From Rugalucina vietnamica (Eukaryota; Mollusca; Bivalvia; Lucinida; Lucinidae), in assembly GCA_964017185.1 (NCBI GenBank), contig OZ024884.1, forward strand, positions 10,827,548-10,891,547: DNA of 64,000 bases. Reading direction: 5' to 3'. A program made the position numbers and the translations under genes. This document shows, piece after piece, positions 4,831 through 51,435 of the stretch. Numbering within the stretch: the first letter of the stretch is position 1; every line of letters starts with the position of its first letter. Below the pieces are notes generated by a model. The model ran no database searches. It had not been told where the DNA came from and saw only the letters and a program-made list of their open reading frames with translations.

Positions 4831-5686
4831 GTTCAAGTTTCGTAATTATTGTAACGGAGTAGCGGATCCAGTACGGGAGCAAACTACCACGTGACCAAAA
4901 CCCAAACAATACTACAGAATGATATTATTTTCAAAAATCAAACACAAATTATTTTGAAAAAAAAAAGTTGGGTCTTATTTTCACCCTAATTTGATATATA
5001 TTTAAGAGAAAACTAAGACATAAAATTACATGGAACCGCACTAAATGTGCCTTTGTGGTAAATAGAAAAATTAAAAGAAAATAACACCATTTTGTCATTT
5101 TCTTGATAGTTCCTAGGCTTTCCACTCATATGAAAATAAACCACTTGAAATCATTGGTGCTGTCTATTGTACGCAAGACCTAGCCTCTGATAGTTATTGC
5201 AACATGGATTGGACATGTTTTAATGTTTGCTTGAACTGTAACTTCCAGATGATTAAAAAGATCACTGTATAAAAAGACCTAAAGAGATAGTATGCCCTTT
5301 GGTATTAGTCTAGGGGCGAAAATGGTAACATTTTGTGTTGTTATGCATATGTTTAGCAACGGTTACGGTGCTCAATCTGGAGTACAAAAATTGGTATACA
5401 GTTTTATATCATAGGTTGTGTCCGCTTAGGATCTGAATGTGGCATCGCCAGCGTCTCTGATATCTATTTGATAAGCTTCAGTAACTTGCACATTGCCCTT
5501 GGAGTATGACAAAAACTGGTTTTCGAATAAGCTGACTCAAAACTTTGATGCTTTTAGACCTACAAATTGAGTCATATCCCATGACACTTCAGTTCTGTAG
5601 CATCTCGTTTTATTTATGCTTGGCATGCACTATTATAGTGTATAACGCCCATGCGATCCTTTAGTAATGTCCCGTGCAATATATTT

Positions 5687-11263: not shown

Positions 11264-12188
11264 ATTAGGTTAGGGTTAAGGTCGGGTTAGGGTTAGGTCA
11301 TGATAGTGTAAGGTTATGGTTAGGTTATGGTTAGGTTAGGGTTTAGGGTTACGTTAGGGTTTATTATTGCGTTAGGGTTATGGTAAGGTTAGTGTTATGT
11401 TTAGGTTAGGTTATGGTTAGACTATTGTAAGAGTTAGGGTTTGTTTAGGGTAAGGGTTAGTTTAGGGTTAGGGTAAGGTTACGGTTAGGGTTAGGGTAAG
11501 GTTAGGGTTAGGTTAGTGTTAGGTTTAGGTTTAGGTTAGGGTTAGGGTCTAAATAGTGTTAATGTTAGGTTATGTTAGGGTTAGGGTTAGTCAGGGCTAG
11601 GGGTACGGTTACCGTTAGGTAACGTTTAGGGTTTGATTAAGATTAGGGTTGAAGTAAGGGTTAGGTTAGGGTTAGAATTAGGTTAGGGTTAGGGTTAGGG
11701 TTAGGGGTTAGGGTTAGGGTTTGATTAGGATAAGGGTTAGGTTAGGATTCGGTTATGGTTAGGGTTAGGTTAGGATAAGGACACGGTTATGGTTAGATAG
11801 GGTTATGGTAATGTTAGGGTTAGTGTTAGGGTTAAGGATAAGATTAGGGTTAGGTTAGAATTAGGGTTAATGTAAGGATAAGGGTTATGTTAGGGTTTCG
11901 TTAAAATTAGGGTTAATGTAAGGGCTAGGTTAGGGTTAGGGTTACGTGACGGTTAGGGTTACGGTTTAGGGTTGGGGTTACGTGACGGTTAGGGTTACGG
12001 TTTAGGGTTAGGGTTAGTGGTGTTAGGGTTAGGGTTAAGCGTTAGGGTTAGGGTTAGTGTTGGGTCAGGTTAGTGTTAGGGTTAGGGTTAGGGTTAGGGT
12101 TAGGTTAGGTTATGGTTAGGGTTAGGTTAGGGTTAGGGTTAGGTTAGTGTTAGGGTTAAGGTTAGGGTAAGAGTTACGTAACCCTAAC
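11264..12188 (+). repeat. Interstitial telomere-like (TTAGGG)n array, degenerate
   Basis: About 0.9 kb of TTAGGG, TTAGG, TTATGG and similar units, all with the G-rich strand on plus until a terminal GTTACGTAACCCTAAC turn near 12172-12188. It is flanked by the two halves of a hairpin-MITE centre: CGTTAGAACAGCCTCGGCGG on the left and GGCCAAGGCTGTTCTAA on the right. TTAGGG is the molluscan telomere repeat. Degeneracy indicates an old internal array, not a chromosome end. Confidence 0.93.
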
Positions 12189-18152: not shown

Positions 18153-18448
18153 TGATCTTTAGGTGCATCTTTAAGACTGCAGTTGACAATTCCTATTCTT
18201 TTAGTTGATGTTATCTAAAATTCTTTTCTAATGTCCAGAGATCAATCACTTTTAAGCTTCCTGCACTCGCCCAATATAAACTGGGATATTCGATGAGTTC
18301 AGCACTTCACTCCAAGTGCTTGTCGAATAAACGTCATAAGCTCACTTAGTGTTTGACCCTTTGGACGCATTGCTTTTAGGTTGTCCTCGCGTGTCACAAA
18401 GATTCCCTGCTAAAACGACACTTACAAAATCGTTGGCTGGAAATTTGG
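18153..18448 (+). repeat. 5' LTR
   Basis: Starts TGATCTTTAGG. It has a TATA-like AATATAAACTGGG at about 18272 and an AATAAA signal at about 18326. ACTTACA at 18426 gives a TG...CA end, but identity with the other LTR runs about 20 bp further. A TGG that could begin a primer-binding site follows at 18434. Confidence 0.8.
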
Positions 18449-18920
18449 CGGAGAGTCCAAATCTACCACGTGCAGCTACATTCCCCAACAACATCATTCC
18501 AAGCAACAGAAGTCAGGCGGTCAGACAGTCAGCCGGAAAACTACAATTATACACGTAGCCGAGCCCTCGTCGACCAGCCAAAGTCACCGACATTGTACAG
18601 CAACTCGCTTCGTCGGTCTATACGGTGCAAAGTCAAAATCCTTTGCCACCTACAACACAGAGGGATTACCAGCATCGATTCCACCCAACATCACCAAGAC
18701 GGCACTACCAACCACCAGAACAAAGGCGGCAGCATCTACCATGTTCCTAGGACAACACAAAACAACACATCGAAACAACAGAAGAAAATGCATTAAATGT
18801 GGGGGTAAGTCATCTTTTTCGTACAAGCGTTCAGCTTGCCCTGTATATAATGTCATTTGTCAGTTGTGTAGCAAAGTGCACCATCTTGCCAGTGGATGTA
18901 GAAGGAATTCTCGTAAATAG
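18449..18920 (+). pseudogene. gag: Gag remnant with zinc knuckles
   Basis: The last part (18789-18917, ended by TAG at 18918) encodes a Cys-rich segment with C-x2-C-G-G at its start, then a Cys about 13 residues later, C-x2-C, and H-H-x4-C. This is the spacing of paired zinc-knuckle motifs in nucleocapsid regions of LTR retroelements. Upstream, a proline/glutamine-rich stretch reads in a different frame up to TAG at about 18749, so at least one frameshift separates it from the knuckle. Gag would package element RNA. The capsid part is missing or unrecognisable, so the gene is broken and truncated. Confidence 0.65.
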
Positions 18921-19014
18921 CGATTCATGCCTGTCCATGAAAGCATAAATGCTCAGCAAACTTCAAATTTAAAAACGCGCTTTACCACGAGGACGGAAGA
19001 ACTAACTAAATGTT

Positions 19015-19385
19015 ATGAACCACTGCAGAAGCTGAGGGTGAGGTTATGGTCATTTAAAATCGATTTAAACCCGCCAGTAACTTTGTGTTACTGATCGTTC
19101 CAAGTCGATACTTCTGTGGTGGTTCTTTTTGTTTTATGTCTTGGTGTTTAAAATATTTTTGTGCTGTTGGCGCCTCATGTATGTTTTCATATTTTTAGTT
19201 AAGTTAAGGTAACTGAGTGACCACCTATTGGGAAAATAGCTGCTCATTCGGCTTACGACATGTTTTCATGGTATAAGAACCTGATTGTTAGTTTGGTTTT
19301 TTCCCATCTCGTTTTTTGGAGTGGGAATCTTTTTCTGATTGCGCCTTTTCCTGATCTTTGCCTACTTGTACCTTTTTACAATAAA
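19015..19385 (+). repeat. GATCGTTCCAAG-family repeat nested in LTR element
   Basis: Includes the upstream CACTGCAGAAGCTGAGGGTG block also seen at 24420, then the family core from GATCGTTCCAAGTCG. Its presence between gag and env shows the internal region was already degraded. Confidence 0.75.
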
Positions 19386-19844
19386 GGTTATCGCAATAAA
19401 AATATTCGTGATAGCTTGATCTACTGTCGCATTATGCAATCTTCATAATTGCTGTTTTAGCTTCGGTCAGCATGTTATGTCAATGACATGAGGAGATCGG
19501 TCTGATAGTAACTTTGATATGGTTCTGCTTCCCAAAATCTGAGCTCAGTCCCTTTTTTGTCCTATTTGTTTTTATTCTAAACATTTTCCAAAAGTTTTCA
19601 TTTTTTATTTTTTATTTAACATCAGGTGGTCCTTATGGCAGAACTTTACTGACTTTGCTGATGGCCTATGTGATCCTCTGTTTATGTCTAGAGACAAGTG
19701 CGTTCGACCATGATCTTCAACATTAAATTATGGAGTGATCAGGACTTGAACTCACAACTGATTATTGGTTACACACCTTTGAGGTCCAGCTACCTAGTGT
19801 TCAATCAGTAAGGCATTAATCTGGTTGTCATCGTGATAAAAACA

Positions 19845-20016
19845 CATGTAATTTACTGAAGCCCATTCTAAGGGAGGTGCAGTCACTGGTTAGTCAAAAT
19901 GAGGTCATGCTAAACAACACGGTTCGCACAGTAGAAAAGCTCGTAGCTCATGTTACCAAGGATAATCCTCATAGCAACAGGCGATCAATTTTTTCATTCA
20001 TCGGGGCAGTGATCTT
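19845..20016 (+). pseudogene. Env-like N-terminal fragment with basic cleavage-type site
   Basis: A 57-codon open stretch reads on plus from about 19845. It contains one Cys and a helical, Leu/Val-rich segment, and ends with a basic pair (Arg-Arg near 19979-19984) followed by a short hydrophobic segment, then TAA at 20018. A basic pair before a hydrophobic fusion-peptide-like start is typical of class I or F-type envelope proteins. It is in a different frame from the main env frame and separated from it by about 0.6 kb of noncoding sequence. The assignment is inferred and moderate to weak. Confidence 0.4.
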
Positions 20017-20579
20017 ATAATACAAGTGATTGGACTCTAGCCCTATTTTATAGAATATGCTTGACTTGCCACTTGGACTGGGCTGGACAGGTATTCCAAT
20101 AGTTGACTATGCAATTAAATAAGGCAAAATATTTCAAACACTGCCTGTGTTTCACAAAATACTCCTACAAGCATATTGACTATAACTTAAAAAGAAATAT
20201 ACCATTCTAAAGATGAACTGTCCCAGTGTTGTTTGATATAAAATTCAAATAGATTGAGTGATTACTTTTATATAAAAAGGCTGTTACAAAAGAGGCAAAA
20301 AAAACTTCTTCTGGAAGAAAACAATTTTTCTTCATTTTTTTACAGATGGCTTAGGTGTAATTTTTTGTGTATATATTCAAACTTGACATCAAACAACAGC
20401 CCAATATGTGCTTAAACAGATGACATGTTTTGCTTAAATAAAAATGCAATATAGAAGAAGGAGTAGTTCGTAGAAACTGACCACTATAAACACATATTTT
20501 CTTACTTATTCTCCATGTAAATACCTATTGGGCATATTCTAAAACCTGGCCTGACTCCAAGTCACACATACATTGGAAA

Positions 20580-22553
20580 ATGATAATAGCAGTACTGAAG
20601 TTTCAAGTCCCTGTAAATCTACTGTCCCTGATCGGGGATCTATCTAAAACGATTTTCGGGACGGCCACTGTTGAGGACACAAATACACTAGCTAAACACA
20701 TACATGTAAATGCACTGCAAAAACAATCCAAAAATCTTGTTCATTTAATGCAACAACACGAAGATGGGCTATCATCATTTATGTCAACAGCCAATGCGAT
20801 AATGACTAATCTCATGAAAGGTATACAGGAAAACCATGATGCAATCTCAGAGCTCCATTCTTCAATGAAAAATACTTTCAAAGTTATAGACCAATCATTC
20901 ACGACAATGGGTGTATTGATCACAAATCAAATGCAACATTCCCAGCAATTACAATATGCACTTGAAGAGCTAGTATTTAACTCAAGGTAAAATTTCTCCA
21001 GCGTTAATTCCATCACATATTCTATCGAAATGTTTAGATTATATACAGACTGTTTTACATGACAATTCAAAGGTCTCTATCTTTCGAAAACATTGTCACA
21101 CAACCCATATAATTCACTTAAATTCATGTTTGCAAGACAACATTCAAAACTGTACATAACAATTAAGTTTCCAATTACACCTTTTGTAGAACCCATGAAT
21201 CTGAATCTGTATATGGTCAAGACATTCCCAGTACCGGTCAACCATTCAACAACACATGCAACTCAACTTCTAGATCTTGCAGAACACTATGCAATTACAC
21301 ATGATGCCCAGTACTATGTAGAACTCAATAATGTAAACTTGGAATCATGCTCCAAAACAAAAATCAGGTCACGCCATGATACAAAGGCTCTCAATCCCAT
21401 AACTCATAAATCATGCTTATCAGCTCTGTATGCAAATGATAAAACAACAGTCAAAACCTTGTGTGACTTCAGGTTTATCACAAATCATATTCAATCTGAT
21501 CTCATTGAAGTTAACAAAACATCAGTTCTCGCTTATAATAGTGGCCTTTTGGAAATGGGCTGCAAATCTGGCAAGAAAATGATTAAAGGCTGCAATTTCT
21601 GTCTTATAACTAAACCATGCCATTGTTCAATATCAAGTCAAACACGATACCTTCCCCCTCGACTGTCCTCATGCCAGCATCAATCTGACAATATAACTGT
21701 TTCTCACCCTGTCAACTTAGCTTTATTACAGCAATTTTTCAATGAATCTTCTCTCGATGACATCTTTGCAGATACTGTTTTCTCTGAAAAACTGCAAGTT
21801 GACGTACCGTTTTTCAAGTTATACAACCATTCTATGTCAGCAGTTCTTGCAGATGACATCAAACAACACTTCAGTTTACAGAAAATGTCAGAAAAGGCTA
21901 AAAATGATGCTGTTATATAGAGATCATTAACTGAATCTTTCCTAGAAGGAGATCTAACATTAAGTGACATGGGTGCAACCACGAAAGTCATCATCGTACT
22001 TGGGGCACTTCAAAGGGTTGAAAATGTTAAAGCAGCTTCACTACCTGTATTTCATTATCAAAAGACTGTAGGTGATGATCCACAAGCAGCGTCTTACTTC
22101 TGGGAAAATATAAACCTGTCTTGGTAACATGGCATATTCAGTATAGTGTGTTTAATACTCATTGTTACAGCAGTCATTCTTATAAAACTGTTTAAACGTA
22201 AACCCCATAACACAGTACTTATTCTAGAATTAACTACAGGAGACTTGTGTGTTCATATTCCCTTAAAGCATATGCCTTTGAGTCCATTCTATTGGAAAAT
22301 AGTTGCCCCATCATCAATAGATCATATCATGGTCTCTCATGACCTCATACGTCCTAAGTTATCATTTGAATGGTCTGGAATTTCTTTGACAAACACAATT
22401 GCAAATCAAACTTTGACTGTTCCGAGAAGTCACAACCTGAACATGTTTTCGGCTTCTAAAATTAGGCAAATTTTAAATCAAACATATTGCGCTTACTTTT
22501 TCGTAAAGCATTATGACTTGACGATTCCTGTACAATCTTTAGTGGGTAACTGA
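20580..22553 (+). pseudogene. env: Interrupted env-like (F-type fusion glycoprotein) gene
   Basis: Envelope-type membrane glycoprotein gene of an LTR element, which would act at the cell surface in virion entry if intact. The first segment (20580-20990) has a hydrophobic start, the short motif IFGTAT with acidic residues after it, then a long heptad-like helical region; this resembles insect errantivirus and baculovirus F-type Env proteins. The second (21093-21920) is rich in Cys and N-x-S/T sites, as expected for an ectodomain. The third (22146-22553) opens with a single transmembrane helix (about 22146-22190) followed by Lys/Arg and a long tail. All three lie in the same frame. Breaks: a shift of frame between about 20986 and 21092, TAG at 21918 and TAA at 22124. 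It is therefore a broken gene, though lightly so. Confidence 0.7.
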
Positions 22554-40897: not shown

Positions 40898-41640
40898 TAA
40901 TATCAAGAATGAAAAATTCGGGTAACTGGCTGATTTTTATTGATTTTTTCACATTGGAAAAAAACCTGTGGCTAGTCAAATTCATTTTCTTCAATTATTT
41001 TTTGTTCGTTTTGAACCGATTTTCATTTTTGTTGCACTTTTTAAGACTTTTGGAAAACGGAAGGATGACACGACTATAATAATTTCCTTGACTGGTTTTA
41101 AGAAGGGTGAAATTCCAAACAAATATATAAATAACAAGAAAAGCTATAACATGTAGCCACATGTAATAATTGGGCGGTGTGATAAAAGTGGTAGAAATAC
41201 TAAAAAGAAATATGGCTTGATTTGCTAAGGTTTTATTACGGAAACGGCTCCGTGTTAAAATTCCTTCATTCACCGGACTGCTTTCCACTGATTCGGGCGT
41301 TTTGGTCAATTATCAAATATACAGACATTAATGATTCGGTTCCGACTATGACTACACACTCAGTTTAGGCAAATAAAATGTATAATCGGTATACTAACTC
41401 GAGCGATGTAGTCACATAAAAAGAAATTTAAAAAATTCAAAAGAGCAGTCATCCTTTAATTTAATAATTAATGCAGTATTTCTGAACAAGATCATGATTG
41501 AAGAATAAGACTGAATGCAAAACTTAAGAATGGTTAAGAAATATGTGAGGGTCGGGTGATGAACCCCTCCCCTCTTGATTTCTTTTGGTGGTGAGCAAAA
41601 AAACAGTTAAGAACCTACGAAATGTCAATTCAATCCGGAC

Positions 41641-42175
41641 ATGATGTTTGAATATTACAGTCATATACATGTATATAGCCCCGGTGCAGGGGCAGATAAC
41701 CCCCTGGGGCCAAAATGTTTTTGTAAACATAAATATTCCATCCATTTGCCCATGTCCTGCAAGTTTTGCCCTTCAAATCACATTTTAACAATTTTCCCCA
41801 TTCAAATGCATGGGCGACCTATGTTGACCTTGCAGTTAATTAGGTCAAGGTCATCAGAGGGCCATGGATTGATTTATACAAACTTTGTAGAGCTCCATTG
41901 CCTGATGCTTCATGCCAAGTTTCAAAATCATAGGCCTTATGGTTCTGGAAAAGAAGGCTTTGCTACTTATAGCCATGGCGGAAATAACTTTTGTTCCCCC
42001 TTCCTGAGGATAATCCATATAAAGTTTGGCTTTGATTGGCCCAGTGGTTTTAGAGGAGAAGATGTTTCACTGAACATTGCGGACAACAATGACTACAACG
42101 ACGACGGTCGATGGAGCATGGGTATACTATAAGCTCACCTTGTGAACATAACGGCTCAGGTGAGCTAAAAATGGG
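41641..42175 (+). repeat. Dispersed repeat ending CAGGTGAGCTAAAAA
   Basis: Contains GACCTATGTTGACC, AGGTCAAGGTCATCAGAGG, TGCTTCATGCCAAGTTTC, an ACGACGACGG stretch and the terminal AGGTGAGCTAAAAA that also ends the tandem array at 48360. A 163-codon frame covers it, but the sequence is clearly repetitive (compare 17835-18152), so no protein is called. Confidence 0.75.
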
Positions 42176-42221
42176 ACCTGGCGCGTATACTAGCATACAA
42201 ATATGCATTCAAAGGAGCATG

Positions 42222-42424
42222 TTGGCCTGGTGGTTAGTGCATCAGACTCTGGTTAGGGAGGTAGGGAGTGGATCCCCACTGGTGGCTGGCTTATATCACT
42301 GCACGATGAGCAAGGGACATTGACTCTGGAAAGTACTGGTTAATACACACAAAGGAGTGTCCCAAGCTGGGGACATGACAGAAATATTGTTGACTGGGAC
42401 GTCACATCCATACCTAAATCAAAC
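42222..42424 (+). mobile_element. tRNA-derived SINE, diverged
   Basis: GGCCTGGTGGTTAGTGCATC head (box A-like), GGAGTGGATCCCCACTGG in place of box B, GAGCAAGGGACATTGAC, and the GGGACATGACAGAAATATTG and GACTGGGACGTCA tail. Confidence 0.7.
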
Positions 42425-42585
42425 CAAAAGGTTGCACAGTTCAAATGTGGGTTGTACATTTTGTAAAGTGTTGTTTCTTAGTCTTTCTTAAAAATCTGAC
42501 AGCTGCTGACTACTCCATTTTAGCTCTAAAAATTCTGGTGTTTGATTTAAGGTCTAACATTCCTTCTTGGTCATCAATTTTTCAG

Positions 42586-42815
42586 TTATGTCCGGACGGT
42601 GAAACGGTTTTCTGGGTATCAACCAGGGTGAAAATCATGAGAGCCATGGACTAATTTCCCTCCTGGCGCACCCCCCGGTGAAGTATTGTCAATTTGGCGT
42701 GTCACCAGTAAACCATTCAGATTCAGATGTGTCTTGCTCAAGGACGCAACCAAGTCCCAGTGGGGTTTGAACCCAGAACTTTGTGATTCAACACTACGCT
42801 ACTGCCCTCACTAAG
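42586..42815 (-). mobile_element. tRNA-derived SINE, diverged
   Basis: On plus: TTATGTCCGGACGGTGAAAC, GTCTTGCTCAAGGACGCAAC, GGGGTTTGAACCCAG (box B complement) and CACTACGCTACTGCCC. Confidence 0.65.
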
Positions 42816-43305
42816 TACATGACTGTAATATGCTAAACCTCGGCTGCAGCAATCATGCCTGTATAGCTCAATTTCAGGAACATACTCTGAATCCCTGGCG
42901 ACAGGTTTTCTTGCACCCCGACTCACCTACTGATCTCGAAGTCATAAATTTTAAAACCAACAAAAAAAGATCCTTTATATGTCATGAAATTTCATGTATT
43001 TATTTCTGTTTATGCACACTAGGAAAGAACATAAATGCACTATTTACATATATAATACATGTACATGTTTGTACAAAACACATGCAATGTTTTTTTTTGT
43101 TTTTTGTTTTTCGAATTTAACCATGAAAACTCCATGTGACCTGCATTGTCATGTTTGTCCTTTAATGGGTCATGAAAGAAAGTCAACCTTGATAAACATA
43201 TCCATATTGCAAGTATTATAATCTATATCACACTGGTTTATATTCAGAGAGAATTGTGAATGAAAACAATCAATGTCGATGCCATGATCAATACCTGTGT
43301 GGAGT

Positions 43306-44592
43306 ATGGCAAGCCGTTTTACTATTTATTATGCTTATTAGATATCTTGAATAGTAAATAAGATATCTTAATTAGGATATAAGATATCTTATTTAGCAAT
43401 AAAGATATCTTCTTTATCAAAAAAGATATCTTATATCCTAAATTAGATATCTTATATAGTAAAGAAGATACCTAATATGCTAAATAAGATATCTTATTTG
43501 ATCCCACAATTAAGATATCCTATATAGCATATAAGATATCTTATTTGATAATTTAGATATCTAATATACTAAATAAGATATCTACTATACCTAAAAAAGA
43601 TATCTTCTTTACAAGATTAATTAAGATATCTACTTTCATAAATATGATATATATCTTCATTGCTAAACTAGATATCTTATATAGCAAATAAGATATCTAA
43701 AGTGGTAAATAAGATATCTTATTTAGGTATAATAGATATCTTATTTAATATATATGATATCTTATTTAGTATATTAGATATCTAAATTATCAAATAAGAT
43801 ATCTTGATTAAGGCTATAAATAAGATATCTGTATTGGTATAGTAGATATCTTATATAAGCATCAGAAACCAATTGTGATTGGGTAAAACAAATAAGATAT
43901 CTTATGTACTAAATAAGATATCTGATTTGTTTAAATCAGATATCTAATATAGGATATAAGATATCTATTTTTGTGTAAACATAAGATATCTTATTTGTCA
44001 AATAAGATATCTACTTTAGCATAGTAGATATCTTATTTGTGAATGCAATTAAGATATCTTATATGTTGAAGAAGATATCTTATTTGACAAATAAGATATC
44101 TTATATGATAAAATAGATATCTAATATACTTTTTAGATATCTTATATATTAATTAAGATATCTTATTTAGGAAAAACATTATAGATATCTAATTTATCAT
44201 ATTAGATATCTAATTTGTTAAACAAGATATCTTAATTAACAAATTAAATGCTATATCAGATATCTATATTAATTAAGATATCTTATATATTTTTACAAAT
44301 AAGATATCTAATATATCAATCAAGATATCTTATTTGTTAATTTAGATATCTACATTAACAAATAAGATATCTTGTTTAGTTAAAAAGATATCTTATATAC
44401 TATATAAGATATCTTAAATGACAATTTAGATATCTAATATAACAAAACAGATATCTTATTTGCTATATAAGATATCTTCTTTATAATAGATATCTAATAA
44501 AATAAAGTAGATATCTTATTTATTAAAGAAGATATCTTATATACAATATAAGATATCTGTTTGTTTGAATAAATAGTAAAACGGCTTGCCAT
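43306..44592. mobile_element. Transposon-like unit filled with 21-bp-spaced AGATATCT palindromes
   Basis: The ends are perfect 25-bp inverted repeats starting ATGGCAAGCCGTTTTAC. They are flanked by TGTGGAGT (43298-43305) and TGTGGAGA (44593-44600), a 7-of-8 match, as expected for an 8-bp hAT-type duplication. Inside are about 51 exact AGATATCT and a handful of one-mismatch copies. Starts run 43340, 43361, 43382, 43403, 43424, 43445, 43466 and 43487: exact 21-bp steps, with occasional steps of 18, 22 or 26. The 13-bp spacers are AT-rich and not conserved in sequence. There is no coding capacity. Confidence 0.93.
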
Positions 44593-45737
44593 TGTGGAGA
44601 CAACTTTCCACAGATCACAATTTTTTTTTGTAAAGTTGTTCTAAGGCACGTAATTGCATACTACAGTCTTTGAGTCTTTTACTGATTTTATCCGCGTTGG
44701 CTGTTCTCAGTTCTGGATAATCGGTTTGGTATTCTTACTATATATCACTGAAACATGTTTCGTGCACATGCACATCGTTGTTAACAGCTTCTCACCATGG
44801 TCTAATGTCACAGACAGCAAGATCTTTCATGCAGAAGAAACATACACACACATACGAGTATTTAACAACAATTGTCAGAGAATCAGACTAAATCCTCGCT
44901 TCAATAAAACACCTATGGGAAAGAACACAGGTTGCTAAAAAATGATGCACAGTTCAAACCCCAGAATAGATCTTGTCAATGGCACTGTCACACTGAATCC
45001 AGTATAGCCCAGCCTTTTTATAGCAGGGCTTTAAAACTAAACTTTAATGATTTTTGCTTTGTAATATCAACTATATCTTGATTTCTTCACAGTATTACTA
45101 TAACTCATGTCCACTTCAAAACACAGATTGTATTAAAGTCCATTATGTATCATTTAAGTTAGGGTGAACAGTTTATTGTACATGCAGTCATCCCCTCTAT
45201 TTGCTGTTGATGATATTAGCTCTCTCCCCTCTGAAAATAAATGAATACACGCATCAGTAATACATGTAACACCAAATAACAAAACAATGACATTGTCACA
45301 TATCAAAATTGGACATACATGCAGTCACTTTCTGAGTACTATGAAAGGGCTCCTAAAAACAGTTCCTCCTTGTGACGTTTCCTCCTGGACTATTTGCGCA
45401 AAAAATCGAATGGGGCTGTTTGCTAAAAAAGGACGATTCGCTCAAAATCAATTTTATGGGTCGGTTCACCAATTATAGTTTTAGAAGTCCTTAAGCGACT
45501 TGTTTATCCTACTTGGATGTCTTAGTTCGTTGAAATGACATAAAAAATAAATAATTTCAATAAAAAAAAAAAACATTAAAATCAATTTTTTTAAAACATG
45601 TGGCACTCTTCGGGAGTAAATGTCCCGTTTGAAAAATATTTTTTTACGCAAACAGTCCCGGAAGGAACTGGTTTGTGCGTGAAACATCCTGTAACCCCAT
45701 GAAAGCCATGTGTACTATGTCATGTTTTTTGTGTTTT

Positions 45738-45937
45738 TTTTTTTTTTTTGTTTTTTTTTTTTTTTGTATTGAGGCCTTACATCTCAGTCAACAATTTTTC
45801 AGTCTTGTCAGGATGGGTTTAACCAGTACTGTAGTGTCTTGCTCAAGGACACAACACGGTGAGGCCTGTGGGGATCGAACCCAGGACCTCTTTATTTAGA
45901 GTCCAACACTCTACCATTACGCCACCCTGCTCCCTAC
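45738..45937 (-). mobile_element. tRNA-derived SINE
   Basis: On plus: T-rich tail, TATTGAGGCCTTACATCTCAG, CTTGCTCAAGGACACAACAC, GGGGATCGAACCCAGGACC, CACTCTACCATTACGCCACC. The minus-strand head reads as a tRNA-like GGTGGCGTAATGGTAGAG. Confidence 0.85.
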
Positions 45938-46538
45938 TACGGTATGTAATGTGATGACTGATATCACTAAAGATGATCTTACCAAAAACTGTATCATTGA
46001 AATAACACTGAAACATCTGTACGCTGCTTGACATCCAACATACAACATTGTCAGTGTGTCAATCTTTCAACCAAAACAACAATCTGAAACAGACAAATAT
46101 CGTTTGAACTCTTTCATCATTTTCATGTCTGTTGGTATTTATCCAAGTTTGAAGTAGTACTGTCAATGTGCATGTATCTATCCTGCCATACCACCCTATA
46201 TATACCCGAATATTATGCGCATAAATGTATAAAAAAATGTAATAGTATAAATAAACATTTTGAAAGACACCATTTTATGAAAAATAAGTCTGTGAGAAGA
46301 TACAGTTTAAAGAGTGTTTTGTTAAAAGATAATGTGTTAAAGATGCAAATTTAGATAACCAGTAATAAAAATATCACAGCGGATGCATTTAACTGTTTGA
46401 TTGTGTAAAAAATTATATGAAAAAATCATGTCTCACAGTTCCAGACCCAGGGAAAGATCCAGGTATGGGTCGTGTAGCAAAATACATATAATTTGGCACT
46501 GGCACCTAGGCATTATACTAAGGAAATTGCATACAAAA

Positions 46539-46695
46539 CCTATTTGGTATCCCTATAATGATACTCAGACTGCTAAGATAGAGATGGTGCAAAGGACTGC
46601 AGCCAGGTGGACCTGTAGGACAGTAGCGTTGGTGATATGCTAGACAAACTTGAGTGGCCATTGGCTGGAGTCCCGCAGGGAGCGGTCCTCCTAAG
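46539..46695 (+). pseudogene. LINE reverse-transcriptase scrap
   Basis: One frame (46539-46620) gives a W-Y-P-Y ... I-E-M-V-Q-R-T-A-A-R-W segment, the signature just downstream of the RT thumb in Jockey/CR1-type LINEs. After a frameshift it continues M-L-D-K-L-E-W-P, then joins the G-V-P-Q-G-A-V-L motif, which in intact RTs lies well upstream. The fragment is therefore scrambled as well as short. It is a relic of a non-LTR retrotransposon. Confidence 0.65.
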
Positions 46696-46699
46696 ACAC

Positions 46700-47250
46700 A
46701 CTCTGGTACAGTATATCTTGATAAAAACAAATACCTGACCCCAGCACCCAACCTTAAAGAAATGCACAAGACAATTTACCTAAAGTCAGGTCTGGTACAC
46801 ATCAGGATTGAGGTCAGGGATTTTTTTTGTGTGTCTCACGGGCCGAAATTAGGCCTCATTCCCATTGCAAATTACTATTAGGACTGGTGTCTTTTTCCCC
46901 AATCTGGAGAAAAAAATCCCAATTACAGCTGAAAATAATTTTCAACAGTTCCATACATTGTGAAATTCAAACTTTGCTGTTAGAAATGTTATTTAACTTT
47001 TGACACTTTTGATTATGAATTATTATATAATTATTCTAAATGAAATCCCTTATTAAGCTATGTCACTTTGGAAAATATCAATTTTGAATGTCTAGAACTT
47101 GAAATTTCCAAATTCCGAATTTACTTCGTTAATTGTCCCAATCAGAAAGGCCCTAGGGCCCCTTCCCAAAATTGTCAAAAAAATCCCTGGAGGTAAGGTT
47201 TTTAACCTCATTGAGGTTTGAAAATGTACGTGAAATTACTAGATCTATAT
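46700..47250. other. No gene recognised
   Basis: AT-rich. A stretch at 46783-46820 is inverted relative to 49376-49415 (AGGATTGAGG against CCTCAATCCT), so the two may bound an inserted segment within the LINE relic. Confidence 0.4.
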
Positions 47251-47254
47251 TGAG

Positions 47255-48365
47255 AATAAGAGCTGTCGCAGGACAGCGTAGCTCGCCTGACTTGTGCTTT
47301 GTCACTAAATCTATTAAATCTACGACCAAAGACATTGACCTCATTGTCACTCAGGTGGGTTGTGATGGTACAGCATAAAGCAGTTCAACTTGATCCATCT
47401 ACATATTTGATATAGACTTATAACCTAAAATCTAAGTCTGTGACCTTGACCACAGGTGAGTCGAGATGCTACAGCATAATAAAAGAATATAATATCTAAC
47501 AGCAAAGTATCAACTAGATCCATCCATTTGTTCCAGCAATATACAGTTCAAAACACTTTAAGCAAAAGCTTTAACATAAAATTTCAAAGTCTGTGACCTT
47601 GAACTCAAGGTCACCCAGGTGGGTCATGATGGCACAGCATAAAACTTCAGACCAATATCTACCAATATGCAAAGTATCAACTTGATCCCTCTACATATTC
47701 AAAAGATATAGACTTATAAAAACTTTAATCAAAAACTCTAACACAAAATTTCTAAGTCCGTAACCTTGACCTCAAGGTCACCCAGGTGGGTCATGATGGT
47801 ACAGCATAAAACTTCAGACCAATATCTACCAACAAGCAAAGTATCAACTTGATCCCTCTACATATTCAAGAGATATAGACTTATAAAAACTTTAACCAAA
47901 AACTCTAACACAAAATTTCTAAGTCCGTAACCTTGACCTCAAGGTCACCCAGGTGGGTCATGATGGTACAGAATAAAACGTCAGACCAATATGTACCAAC
48001 ATGCAAAGTATCAACCTGATCCATCAACAACTTCAAGAGATATAGACTTATAAAAACTTTAACCAAAGACTTTAACAAAAAATTTCTAAGTCTGTGACCT
48101 TGACCTCAAGGTCACCCAGGTGGGTCATGATGGTACAGCATAAAACTTCAGACCAATATCTACCAACATGCAAAGTATCAACTCGATCCATCAACAACTT
48201 CAAGAGATATAGACTCATAAAAACTTTAACCAAAAACTTTAACATTTTGAGCAACGCCGACGCCGACGCCGACGCCGACGCTAACGCCAACGCCGACGCC
48301 GACGCCGACGCCGGGGTGACTGCAATAGCTCTTCCTGTACTTTCGTACAGGCGAGCTAAAAACAA
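47255..48365 (+). repeat. About 165-bp tandem array, TCAAGGTCA-containing
   Basis: The block CTCAAGGTCACCCAGGTGGG recurs near 47605, 47771, 47939 and 48105, with weaker copies at about 47335 and 47450. Each unit also carries ATCTACCAA-ATGCAAAGTATCAAC and AGAGATATAGACT. The array begins near GTAGCTCGCCTGAC and ends at GTACAGGCGAGCTAA, so its edges are inverted repeats (GCTCGCCTG/CAGGCGAGC). Confidence 0.88.
48257..48312 (+). repeat. (GACGCC)n microsatellite
   Basis: Six-base GACGCC units with two A substitutions, at the 3' edge of the tandem array. Confidence 0.9.
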
Positions 48366-49410
48366 ATACATGTAGCTATGCAAAAATTGCAACATCATTC
48401 CGGGCCGGGCCAATGTTGCTTGCAAAATGTGCAGCTTTCAAATGAAACATTTTTCAGAAAAATCTGTTTGAGAATTCTTTGCAAATTCCTCCAATTTCAT
48501 AAGTGGAAGGGGTAATTTTTGAATTTTGAGATTTAAAATAATAGTCTTCAATGTATGGCATGTATTTGAAAAGTATTTCTGCTGCTTTCTGTATATTTTA
48601 TACTTTTTTCTAAGAATATCATCATTTTGATGTTTAACATTGCTGAAATAGTATTAAACAAAAAATGAAAACAAGTATAAACTTAAAAAAAAAAAGATTA
48701 CCACTTACACCTGATGTCAGTGGCAGAAACCAGGTTTGTGTCAATCAGAAAGACATCAATGCCGGACAGTAGAATTAAGCAGAAAACAATGGTAACATTA
48801 GGTAAAAACATGTTTTGTAAAAAAATATTCTCAGATTAATTTTCAAAACAGTTGTATCAAAAATAAGTAAACGACCAAGGTTAACAGATTTATCAAAGCA
48901 GAATTTTGCTTTTTTCAACGTAAGGCGTAAAATAAAAATAGCCTTGTTTCCGATAACATGCCGAAGGCGGGGTAGAGTCGATAGGTCGGAAAATCTTTTT
49001 ATTTTTTGTGTATTTTTATCTTTCTTGAAAATGGGTAAAAAGGTAGAAACATGCTAAAATTAATCATACATGTAAGTACTCGAAACAAACATGCGATGAA
49101 GTTTAAAACCAGTAGGAAGCTGAATGCGAGTTGACCTAGTATTGTTGAAATTATAGCAGTTTTTAAATCATTGTCTGTTTTCCACTTCAAATGTTGAGGG
49201 TCGGTCTGCATGAAAATATTTCTATTTTATTTTTATTGGCAATAAAAACTGCAGGGTCGGCGCAAAAACTCAGAGTTGGACTGGTTAGCGGAAACACAGC
49301 TATTTTTTGTTTACGCCTAATGCTTCATTTTTCGAAATTTTGCACATGTCTATGCATATTTCAAAACTCAATGGAGGTTACAAACCTCAATCCTGACTTG
49401 CATCAGACCT

Positions 49411-49512
49411 GATAGTGATGCCCTGAAAAATTCATTTTTCCCCAGAACTATTCAGGTTTGGAAAAGTATCCCTTCTCGAGTGGTCTCATCCAAGACCATT
49501 TCAGGAATTTAA
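49411..49512 (+). pseudogene. LINE RT C-terminal scrap
   Basis: Reads K-N-S-F-F-P-R-T-I-x-x-W-x-x-I-P, the well-known C-terminal signature of Jockey/CR1-type LINE proteins, then ends at TAA (49510). It could be the continuation of 46539-46695 displaced by an insertion. Confidence 0.75.
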
Positions 49513-49663
49513 GGTTTCTATCTAAAAATAGGCCCATATCGAGGCAGTTGTTTTAGTGTAAATAGTTTTAATGGTCCACCCCAAAACTATTTTCCCCTTG
49601 ACTAAATTCTAAATTTAGCCAACCACCCCACACCTGAGGTGATGACTGATGATCAGAAATTTT

Positions 49664-49875
49664 GTTGTTTTTTTTTTTTGTATTGAGGCTTAACGTCCCA
49701 GTCATCAATTTTTCAGTCAAGTCGGGACGGAGCCAACTCTTCCTGGGTTTAACCAGTACTGTAGGGAGTTAATGTGTCTTGCTCAAGGACACAACACGGT
49801 GACGCCTGTGGGGATCGAACTCAGGACCTCTCGATTCGGAGTCCGACACTCTACCACTACGCCACCACACTCCCT
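49664..49875 (-). mobile_element. tRNA-derived SINE, full length
   Basis: On plus: T tract, GTATTGAGGCTTAACGTCCC, GTCGGGACGGAGCC, CTTGCTCAAGGACACAACAC, GGGGATCGAACTCAGGACC, CCACTACGCCACCACACTCC. Confidence 0.9.
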
Positions 49876-49925
49876 AAAGATCAGAAATTGATCGACTCAG
49901 TAGGTAGCTTCTTCAACTGCACCCA

Positions 49926-50091
49926 CAGGGGCGGATCCAGGATTTCTGAAGAGGGGGTTCAAATGCAGAAATGGGGGGTACGTTTGCCTAATTTCAGACA
50001 AATTTCTTTAAATTCCCTATGAAGATGAAATAATTTAGGTCCTGAGGGGAGTTGGAGCGAACCCCTTGAACCCCCTCTAAATTCACCACTG
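49926..50091. mobile_element. Short MITE, CAGGGGCGGATCC end
   Basis: Ends CAGGGGCGGATCC and TTCACCACTG are imperfect inverted repeats. ACCCA flanks both sides (49921-49925 and 50092-50096). Confidence 0.7.
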
Positions 50092-50099
50092 ACCCACCT

Positions 50100-51435
50100 T
50101 CTCTGGAAGTCACCAAGCCTAGTGCCACCAACAGAACAGTGCCCAAGAGTGTGAAAGATGAAAAACAGATTTTTTTTATAAAACAAATGGTTATGTAATA
50201 CACGGTATGCGTGTCGATTATTTCCAATGGGGTCATGTTGGTTAGAATCTCCAACACTACCAGACAGCAAGCGTCCAGACCCAGATGGCTAGATTCCTGG
50301 TCTGCAGAGGCTAGACACTGCCTTTTTGAAAAGCTTATACTTGTATAACATTGCATTCAAAAAGCATTACAGTAACATTTGGTAAATACTACCTACTGTA
50401 GTGACCAAAAATTCATGAAATGCCCCGCAATTATATTTCCAAGTATTCAACAGTCTCTAGATTGACAATCAAATAAAAAGAGTGATACAAACCTTGAGTC
50501 ATTTCTTTCTTCGTAAACATTGATCTCCATCACAGTGGATTTTGATACTCTACGGTACCAACTTCGAATACCGGTAGGTTTTACAAAGAAAAACTAAATA
50601 TTAAATATATATATAGCAAGATATTCAACATCTGGCAAACGTTCAAAACTGGACTTTACCAGTGGAATTTCCTTGGTCAAGTTATTCAACTGAAAGTAGG
50701 TCAGCTTGTACAGTCACAGTCAATGGACACCTGTTGCAAAATAAAAATCATTAATAACACCTGTTGTTAGAAAAATTAAGCAAATAAATCCTTCTCTCCA
50801 ACCTCTGATATGACAAAACTGATATCCACTAACTAATAAAACAAAAACAAAATATTTCCAATTGATTCAAGTAAGTAAAATTAATGGTGGACAGGTCCTT
50901 TAGCTGTGGAGGCAAATAGAGGCCCCATATAGGGAAAACAAATTGAATATGAAAACAGACAGAACAATGCAAAGCTAATAAAATCCAAATAAATAATCAA
51001 AACACCGATAAACATAACATCAACGAGAAGAAGAAAAATTCTCAAACACATACATGGAACCATCTGGCAAAACAACATGCTAATAAAGCAAATTCCAAAC
51101 AATTTCCAGACGAGCTAAATTTAGGCAATTTCATGAACCCCCTATTGAGCCTTTTTTCCTGAAACCAAATGGACTATTTATTAATATTTTCCTAAACATT
51201 GTTTATCAATTCACTGATATGACAATTTCTTATCAATTAATTAATATTTTATGAATTATTCCGCCCAGAAAACGCATTTTTGAAAGATGTTCTTTGTAGA
51301 ATAGTAGATTTTTGCTCAGTCGATTGAATATTGGACATTTTGTGCAGTGGTTACAATGTTCTGTAGACACATTTTGCGCTTGGCTAGCTTGTTTCTCCTG
51401 ACACTGATTCTTCGATTCAAAGAGTAAATAACATT
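50100..51435. other. No gene or repeat recognised
   Basis: AT-rich sequence. Frames up to 120 codons on minus (49994-50356) overlap the MITE above and show no domain. Confidence 0.4.

Follow-up and report, generated by a model that had tools for sequence, protein, structure and literature searches.

The locus lies in a 64-kb stretch of DNA (hereafter, the window) in which the 8-bp palindrome AGATATCT occurs 53 times against 0.87 expected, a count reached in 0 of 100 shuffles. Fifty-one exact copies of this core fall in 43340-44558, inside an element spanning 43306-44592 that holds four further cores with one mismatch. Of the 50 core-to-core steps, 32 are exactly 21 bp, and the 18 others are of 26 bp (four), 22 bp (three), 42 bp (two) and 18 bp (two), with 20, 25, 27, 33, 46, 47 and 51 bp occurring once each. 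The element is bounded by TIRs (43306-43330 and 44568-44592) that are identical at 25/25 positions. An earlier note on this DNA had described about 51 palindromes, starts mostly 21 bp apart and perfect 25-bp TIRs, all of which agree with these counts; its 7/8 target duplication, however, is in fact a perfect 6-bp GTGGAG, and the TIR has one additional outer base, T at 43305. The features are as follows.

41131..51272, no strand: outer repeat, about 9 kb, carrying the element; its ends are defined by a single other copy (L086/L051/L087), its interior by L084 as well
43299..43304, no strand: left TSD GTGGAG, 6 bp, within the outer repeat
43305..43330, + strand: left TIR, T + 25 bp, starting TATGGCAAGCCG
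43340..43851, no strand: left arm, AGATATCT array with steps mainly of 21 and 26 bp
43852..43894, no strand: short core-free middle, within a 51-bp core-to-core step
43895..44558, no strand: right arm, AGATATCT array with mirrored step pattern
44568..44593, - strand: right TIR; outermost A changed to T in the copy class of the window
44594..44599, no strand: right TSD GTGGAG, 6 bp
47257..48357, no strand: insertion in the outer repeat copy of the window, absent in L084 and L087, the two copies compared there

The window element consists of the array only and has no gene, and with its TIRs, TSD and many genome copies it has the attributes of a MITE-like non-autonomous element; most MITEs are shorter than its 1.29 kb. 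At the place of the core-free middle, two other copies have longer middles (core-to-core, 905 bp in L068 and 551 bp in L090), and by eye TGATTGGGTAAAA is common to the L068 middle and that of the window. Elsewhere in the window, a degenerate telomere-like GGTTAG array of ~0.9 kb lies at a chromosome-internal position (11267-12176), and a row of ORFs at 18380-22553 resembles, by eye, a retroelement with an envelope-like part; ORFs 18414-18917, 20490-20987, 21063-21917 and 22128-22550 gave no Pfam match above the curated cut-off.

Pieces of the outer repeat are 94–98% identical to the aligned L086, L087 and L084. Its longest open frame is 173 aa, and comparison of its end regions revealed no convincing direct or inverted similarity. 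The insertion at 47257..48357 includes a 167-bp tandem array of 4.5 copies (47498-48244). The window element is a passenger of this larger repeat, as are the class A copies defined below, and would no longer depend on its own transposition.

A search of the 1.09-Gb assembly found 8172 core pairs 21 bp apart (the pattern is self-complementary) against 6 for the reversed-pattern control, and 296 + 293 matches to the TIR with at most two mismatches against none for its reversed control, so that other copies of the element exist. We compared 37 copies with both TIRs, namely 35 from a set of ~100 listed TIR places, nearly all on three contigs, together with the window copy and L009. Class A (26/37 copies) occupies a single GTGGAG site, with both flanks common to 25 copies and only the right flank in L055, and has the right end CCATT. 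Class B (11/37) has other flanks and ends in TATGG..CCATA in 11/11 copies; its 6-bp TSD is 6/6 in seven copies, 5/6 in L083, 4/6 in L054 and L071 and 2/6 in L077. Many copies, their TIRs and the 6-bp TSDs at other sites bear out the proposal that a mobile element carries the array. Its assignment to the hAT type, by contrast, is not sustained: hAT elements make an 8-bp TSD, and the 6-bp TSD together with TA..TA termini in copies at other sites speak against it.

Several loci depart from this layout. L071 (class B), L078 and L080 share the flank TCTCTTACGT, so that L071, whose left and right flanks repeat one another in inverted orientation, may be part of a second passenger group or carrier repeat. 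L048 is a tandem composite of the element, in which the forward TIR recurs three times at 1065-bp intervals alongside a single reverse TIR. In L085, the first ~1.05 kb appears by eye to be a nested element bounded by TACGTGGGATTATC / GATAATCCCTCGTA beside one TIR. Finally, L079 (500-1400) has a perfect TIR followed by 6 kb devoid of AGATATCT, with long tandem repeats of ~330 bp seen by eye, and is another element under the same TIR.

A site profile was built from 55 units of the window copy, the 51 exact and the four one-mismatch cores, which were chosen as such. Within the core, each base carries 1.87–2.0 bits. Of the positions beyond it, +12 is T in 53/55 units and -5 is A in 51/55, A/T is favoured in most columns of the 13-bp spacer, and the three central columns read roughly R-N-Y, the centre base itself being near uniform (~0.01 bit). 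The centre base is 47% GC, compared with 10.8% in the spacer columns counted beside it and 36% in the window (p=0.09 for 47% versus 36%). Since the spacer columns are AT-rich relative to both the centre base and the window, AT-richness looks like a feature of the site rather than of the background, and each site may be regarded as a degenerate palindrome of ~20 bp centred on AGATATCT. The view that spacers are free to vary thus holds in full for the near-uniform centre base alone, most columns being A/T-biased and the central three reading roughly R-N-Y.

The simplest account of such an array would be an ordinary 21-bp satellite trapped between TIRs, with core conservation left over from a recent expansion. 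However, all 32 exact-21 spacers of the window copy differ, and their pairwise similarity equals that of column shuffles; spacers behave much like independent draws from the site profile. In the class B consensus, 45/46 exact-21 spacers are distinct. Among these consensus spacers, 16 reverse-complement pairs match at 12/13 positions or better against 6.9 expected (P=0.005), an excess which shows that block duplication has probably also contributed to the array, and by eye L008 has an internal block duplication, as a satellite origin would predict. The spacers of class A are, moreover, nearly as conserved as the cores. Nevertheless, the array does not fit a simple satellite, that is, tandem-duplicated units with divergence spread over the unit, although a weak duplication signal remains, and a deep subfamily keeps the cores while losing the spacers. 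We therefore consider the satellite explanation very improbable.

That deep subfamily is represented by L068 and L090, which count as one observation because they belong to one subfamily. L068 has TIRs identical at 25/25 positions, the TSD CAAGTC on both sides, 57 exact cores and a step string that is nearly that of the class B consensus. It differs at 2/456 core positions (0.4%) and at 198/719 spacer positions (27.5%); for L090, the counts are 5/464 and 208/746, with 3/55 spacer lengths changed. In L068, 3/53 spacer lengths have changed against ~32 expected (P=7e-11), an expectation derived from the distinct events of class A (11 indels per 68 substitutions), raw counts giving ~63. Spacing is less well kept in the diverged L085 (11/28 lengths changed), and in L054, L074, L083, L009 and L077 length changes are near expectation. 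Alignment of copies thus bears out, for the L068 lineage, the expectation that cores and step lengths are kept while spacers diverge, and on aligned sequence the site and, in this lineage, its spacing are shown to outlast a divergence that erased spacer similarity. The same deep comparisons uphold the remark that the pattern is unlike that left by simple tandem duplication. In the class B consensus (27 sites in the left arm, 32 in the right), every ruler slot between the TIRs is filled except for the 51-bp middle, with 58 exact cores and one one-mismatch core.

If the cores are needed for transposition, passengers are expected to lose them neutrally and transposing lineages to keep them. In class A, private substitutions strike cores and spacers at similar rates, 47/9468 (0.0050) and 91/19376 (0.0047), respectively (p=0.77–0.79, 24/26 copies; the composite L048 and L063 were left out of the private, shared and spacer-length counts). 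By contrast, changes common to at least two copies comprise 4 core and 28 spacer distinct events (OR 0.29, p=0.012), a small class in which the columns of any core that the class A consensus itself has in mutated form are counted as spacer. Taken together, the distinct events of class A number 51 in cores and 119 in spacers (OR 0.86, p=0.43), and the rates for all substitutions are.0070 and.0095. Because the shared changes spare cores, which speaks against a clean neutral control, the comparison rests on the private changes, and the passenger copies serve as an internal neutral control from one genome, though an imperfect one. The near equality of cores and spacers in class A (47 core and 91 spacer private changes) comes close to the spacer conservation that the earlier note had named as the mark of an ordinary recent satellite; it arises because these copies multiplied as passengers of the larger repeat, and the deep subfamily restores the claim that the palindromes outlast their spacers.

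In class B, substitutions fall on 52/3196 core and 222/5865 spacer positions (p=2e-9) in 7/11 copies, L046, L068 and L085 (inserts or very diverged) and the short L077 being left out; distinct events number 54 and 232 (OR 0.35). A stricter count over 8/11 copies, without L068, L085 and L077, gives 48/3234 and 154/5790 (OR 0.55, p=2.6e-4), or 52/3497 and 154/6228 with L077 added, and all 11 copies together give 58/3862 and 388/7010. The strict aligner is unbiased on neutral simulations (core/spacer ratio 0.95–1.02 at 2–28% divergence), and strict class B and class A, for which the counting methods differ, are separated by z=2.65. Measured against the class B consensus, class A differs at 105/8725 core and 216/15740 spacer positions. 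Three class B copies have no core deficit, namely L074 (8/371 core versus 12/677 spacer), L009 (9/433 versus 12/749) and L077 (4/263 versus 0/438). In four copies taken regardless of class, cores are spared: L005 (13/185 versus 72/338), L021 (8/61 versus 32/117), L030 (10/162 versus 57/309) and L008 (3/406 versus 20/709). Overall, comparison of the copies suggests that the palindromes and their spacing are preserved chiefly for as long as the element can transpose.

Gene conversion or a mutational process could instead homogenise the cores, as might be read from their greater uniformity than that of spacers within a copy and from the shared changes of class A, which spare them. Private changes in the same class A arrays, however, strike cores at the spacer rate, and we know of no gene conversion tracts of 8 bp; such homogenisation is very improbable. 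Selection on structure, whether for cruciforms or for a foldback single strand, draws on the folding of a 991-nt stretch, which is far better than that of 20 shuffles (z=-28.8). Yet other palindromes would serve a structure equally well, whereas 58 of the 59 slots of the class B consensus hold the exact core; furthermore, mirrored spacers are not complementary beyond chance, and beyond the core the units are not clearly more self-palindromic than expected. We regard structural selection as quite improbable, and cruciform extrusion, which had been suggested as the selected property, fares no better because one fixed sequence is kept rather than any palindrome.

The order of the steps provides a further clue. 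Read from the middle outward, the left arm of the class B consensus has steps of 21,26,21x3,22,26,21x5,26,22,21x4,26,21x7 and the right arm 21,27,21x4,26,21x5,28,21x5,26,21x8,18,21x3. All four long steps coincide between the arms (indices 1, 6, 12 and 18; shuffle P=5e-5), and in L068 three of its four and five long steps do so (P=0.008). As the shuffle ignores the near-regular recurrence of 26-bp steps, the mirror pattern is strong but not conclusive. Identity between mirrored spacers shows no excess (0.545 in register versus 0.54–0.60 out of register). The cores had been thought to lie on one helical face, but phase coherence at 10.5 bp over the array is 0.14, no better than for permuted steps (P=0.79), and the in-phase fraction, 0.80 at lag 1, is down to 0.35 by lag 5. 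A 26-bp step is ~2.5 turns, so each one turns the next block to the opposite side.

Using the 905-bp middle of L068 as a query, we found a relative of the element at C11:43361813 (L089). It has a TIR with two mismatches in 18 and a left arm of 22 exact and three one-mismatch cores, beyond which the sequence is homologous to the opening 144 bp of the L068 middle used as query. Relative to L068, its arm differs at 6/303 spacer and 8/200 core positions (p=0.27), core changes exceeding spacer changes as would be expected for a dead copy. Beyond this, an integrase-core gene is marked by two ORFs that match PF24764, one at 4848-5213 (E=3.8e-45; rve 0.01) and one at 5217-5648 (E=8.7e-19), the first starting ~4.1 kb beyond the last core. 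Neither a right arm nor a right TIR was found in the 10.5 kb of L089, so the integrase may be a mere neighbour. It has 65 matches in the genome but no near copy, the next being 66% identical, and is the only one of its kind found. C11 (56.5 of 1090 Mb) holds 28 of the 65 matches, of which several are fragments of a single locus and many are interrupted by stops. No cores were present in the downstream stretch of one integrase relative (L093). Homologue searches with two other L089 ORFs returned one protein each, 100% identical, which does not tie these ORFs to the integrase gene. L089 is thus a candidate autonomous relative of the L068 subfamily, perhaps one-ended.

The protein that would bind the cores could also belong to the host, with the array recruiting host machinery, open chromatin or transcription in favour of mobility. 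Conservation of cores in copies elsewhere and in the deep subfamily would equally be expected if mobility required a host factor. On the other hand, among the loci examined the TIR start TATGGCAAGCC lacks nearby cores at one place only (L079); being almost always near cores, it indicates that the array and the TIR family go together. In addition, the related arm in L089 has an integrase gene in its vicinity. A host factor therefore seems unlikely, though it deserves serious consideration. Transposase-binding arrays near transposon ends are known, and we think it probable that we are dealing with a non-autonomous DNA transposon in which mirrored arm arrays of putative dimer-binding sites would be a cis requirement for transposition. 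The conservation suggests that each core may be bound by a protein dimer, the likeliest candidate being the integrase-type transposase of the element itself, and adjacent 21-bp sites would form short co-linear blocks. With each 26-bp step turning the next block to the opposite face, an arm could fold into a defined nucleoprotein body, and the two mirror-image bodies would juxtapose the TIRs, which would then be cut and joined at a 6-bp stagger. The earlier proposal that a dimeric protein binds in an array is consistent with the kept cores and step lengths, but not by way of a single helical face. More tentatively, we propose as a possibility that each end is a conserved spacing code: ~27 and 32 putative dimer sites, in 21-bp blocks split by half-turn-shifted, mirrored 26-bp steps, would assemble a matched pair of nucleoprotein filaments by which the ends are synapsed, a code kept until mirrored spacers lost detectable similarity while site and steps persisted. 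An element that is nearly all sites, with conservation falling on site and step length, would offer natural evidence of how distance and helical face are measured by a transpososome, and its rules lend themselves to tests on sequence data and in simple assays of binding or excision.

Several searches for related systems led elsewhere. With a prokaryotic IS3 model, 75 matches were scored of 2,590 candidates, and the one examined (L088) was by eye a Gypsy-type LTR element; a match of the TIR text in a Xenopus Kolobok table was due to chance. The triple-core pattern yielded six stretches in prokaryote genomes, all short tandem repeats of 3 to 8 cores, and none in viral contigs. A Chlamydiia MAG contig (L013, 1-180) carries six AGATATCT at mostly 21-bp steps with similar AT-rich spacers and is probably unrelated. 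In 5.39 million open papers, most subscription papers and Repbase lying outside this scope, we found no report of AGATATCT with transposable element and palindrome; in the open literature, again with Repbase outside the scope, there were neither MITEs with 21-bp repeats nor matching hAT-type subterminal and internal repeats.

Among known systems, IS3EU/GingerRoot elements are described, in the parts of the source available to us, as having TA..TA termini and usually a 6-bp TSD (PMC10045372). The present element is similar in its TA..TA termini (11/11 in class B), in its 6-bp TSD, perfect in 7/11 and in the window copy, and in the integrase-core gene near a related arm in L089. It differs in its spaced array of palindromic sites, which does not figure in those parts of the descriptions (PMC10045372). 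Judging from termini, TSD and the integrase-core gene near a related arm, IS3EU/GingerRoot appears to be the best-supported affiliation. The bivalve MITE-like pearl/DTC84 elements, as far as the consulted parts of the reports go, combine TIRs with internal repeats, satellite-like monomers that number up to six in a short array, DTC84 having a conserved palindrome near the repeat junction (PMC5139131, PMC12628747). They resemble the present element as TIR elements with internal repeats, but by these partial descriptions differ from it in having up to six monomers, where the present element has 8-bp cores by the dozen, set apart by diverged spacers. Foldback elements likewise have two arms of short repeats, whereas here the arms agree in step pattern and not in spacer sequence. 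A parallel in organization is offered by Ac/Ds and En/Spm, which carry many short transposase-binding motifs in arrays near both ends and retain them in non-autonomous derivatives. Their motifs are, however, fewer and irregularly placed, whereas here nearly the whole element consists of sites on conserved, mirrored steps.
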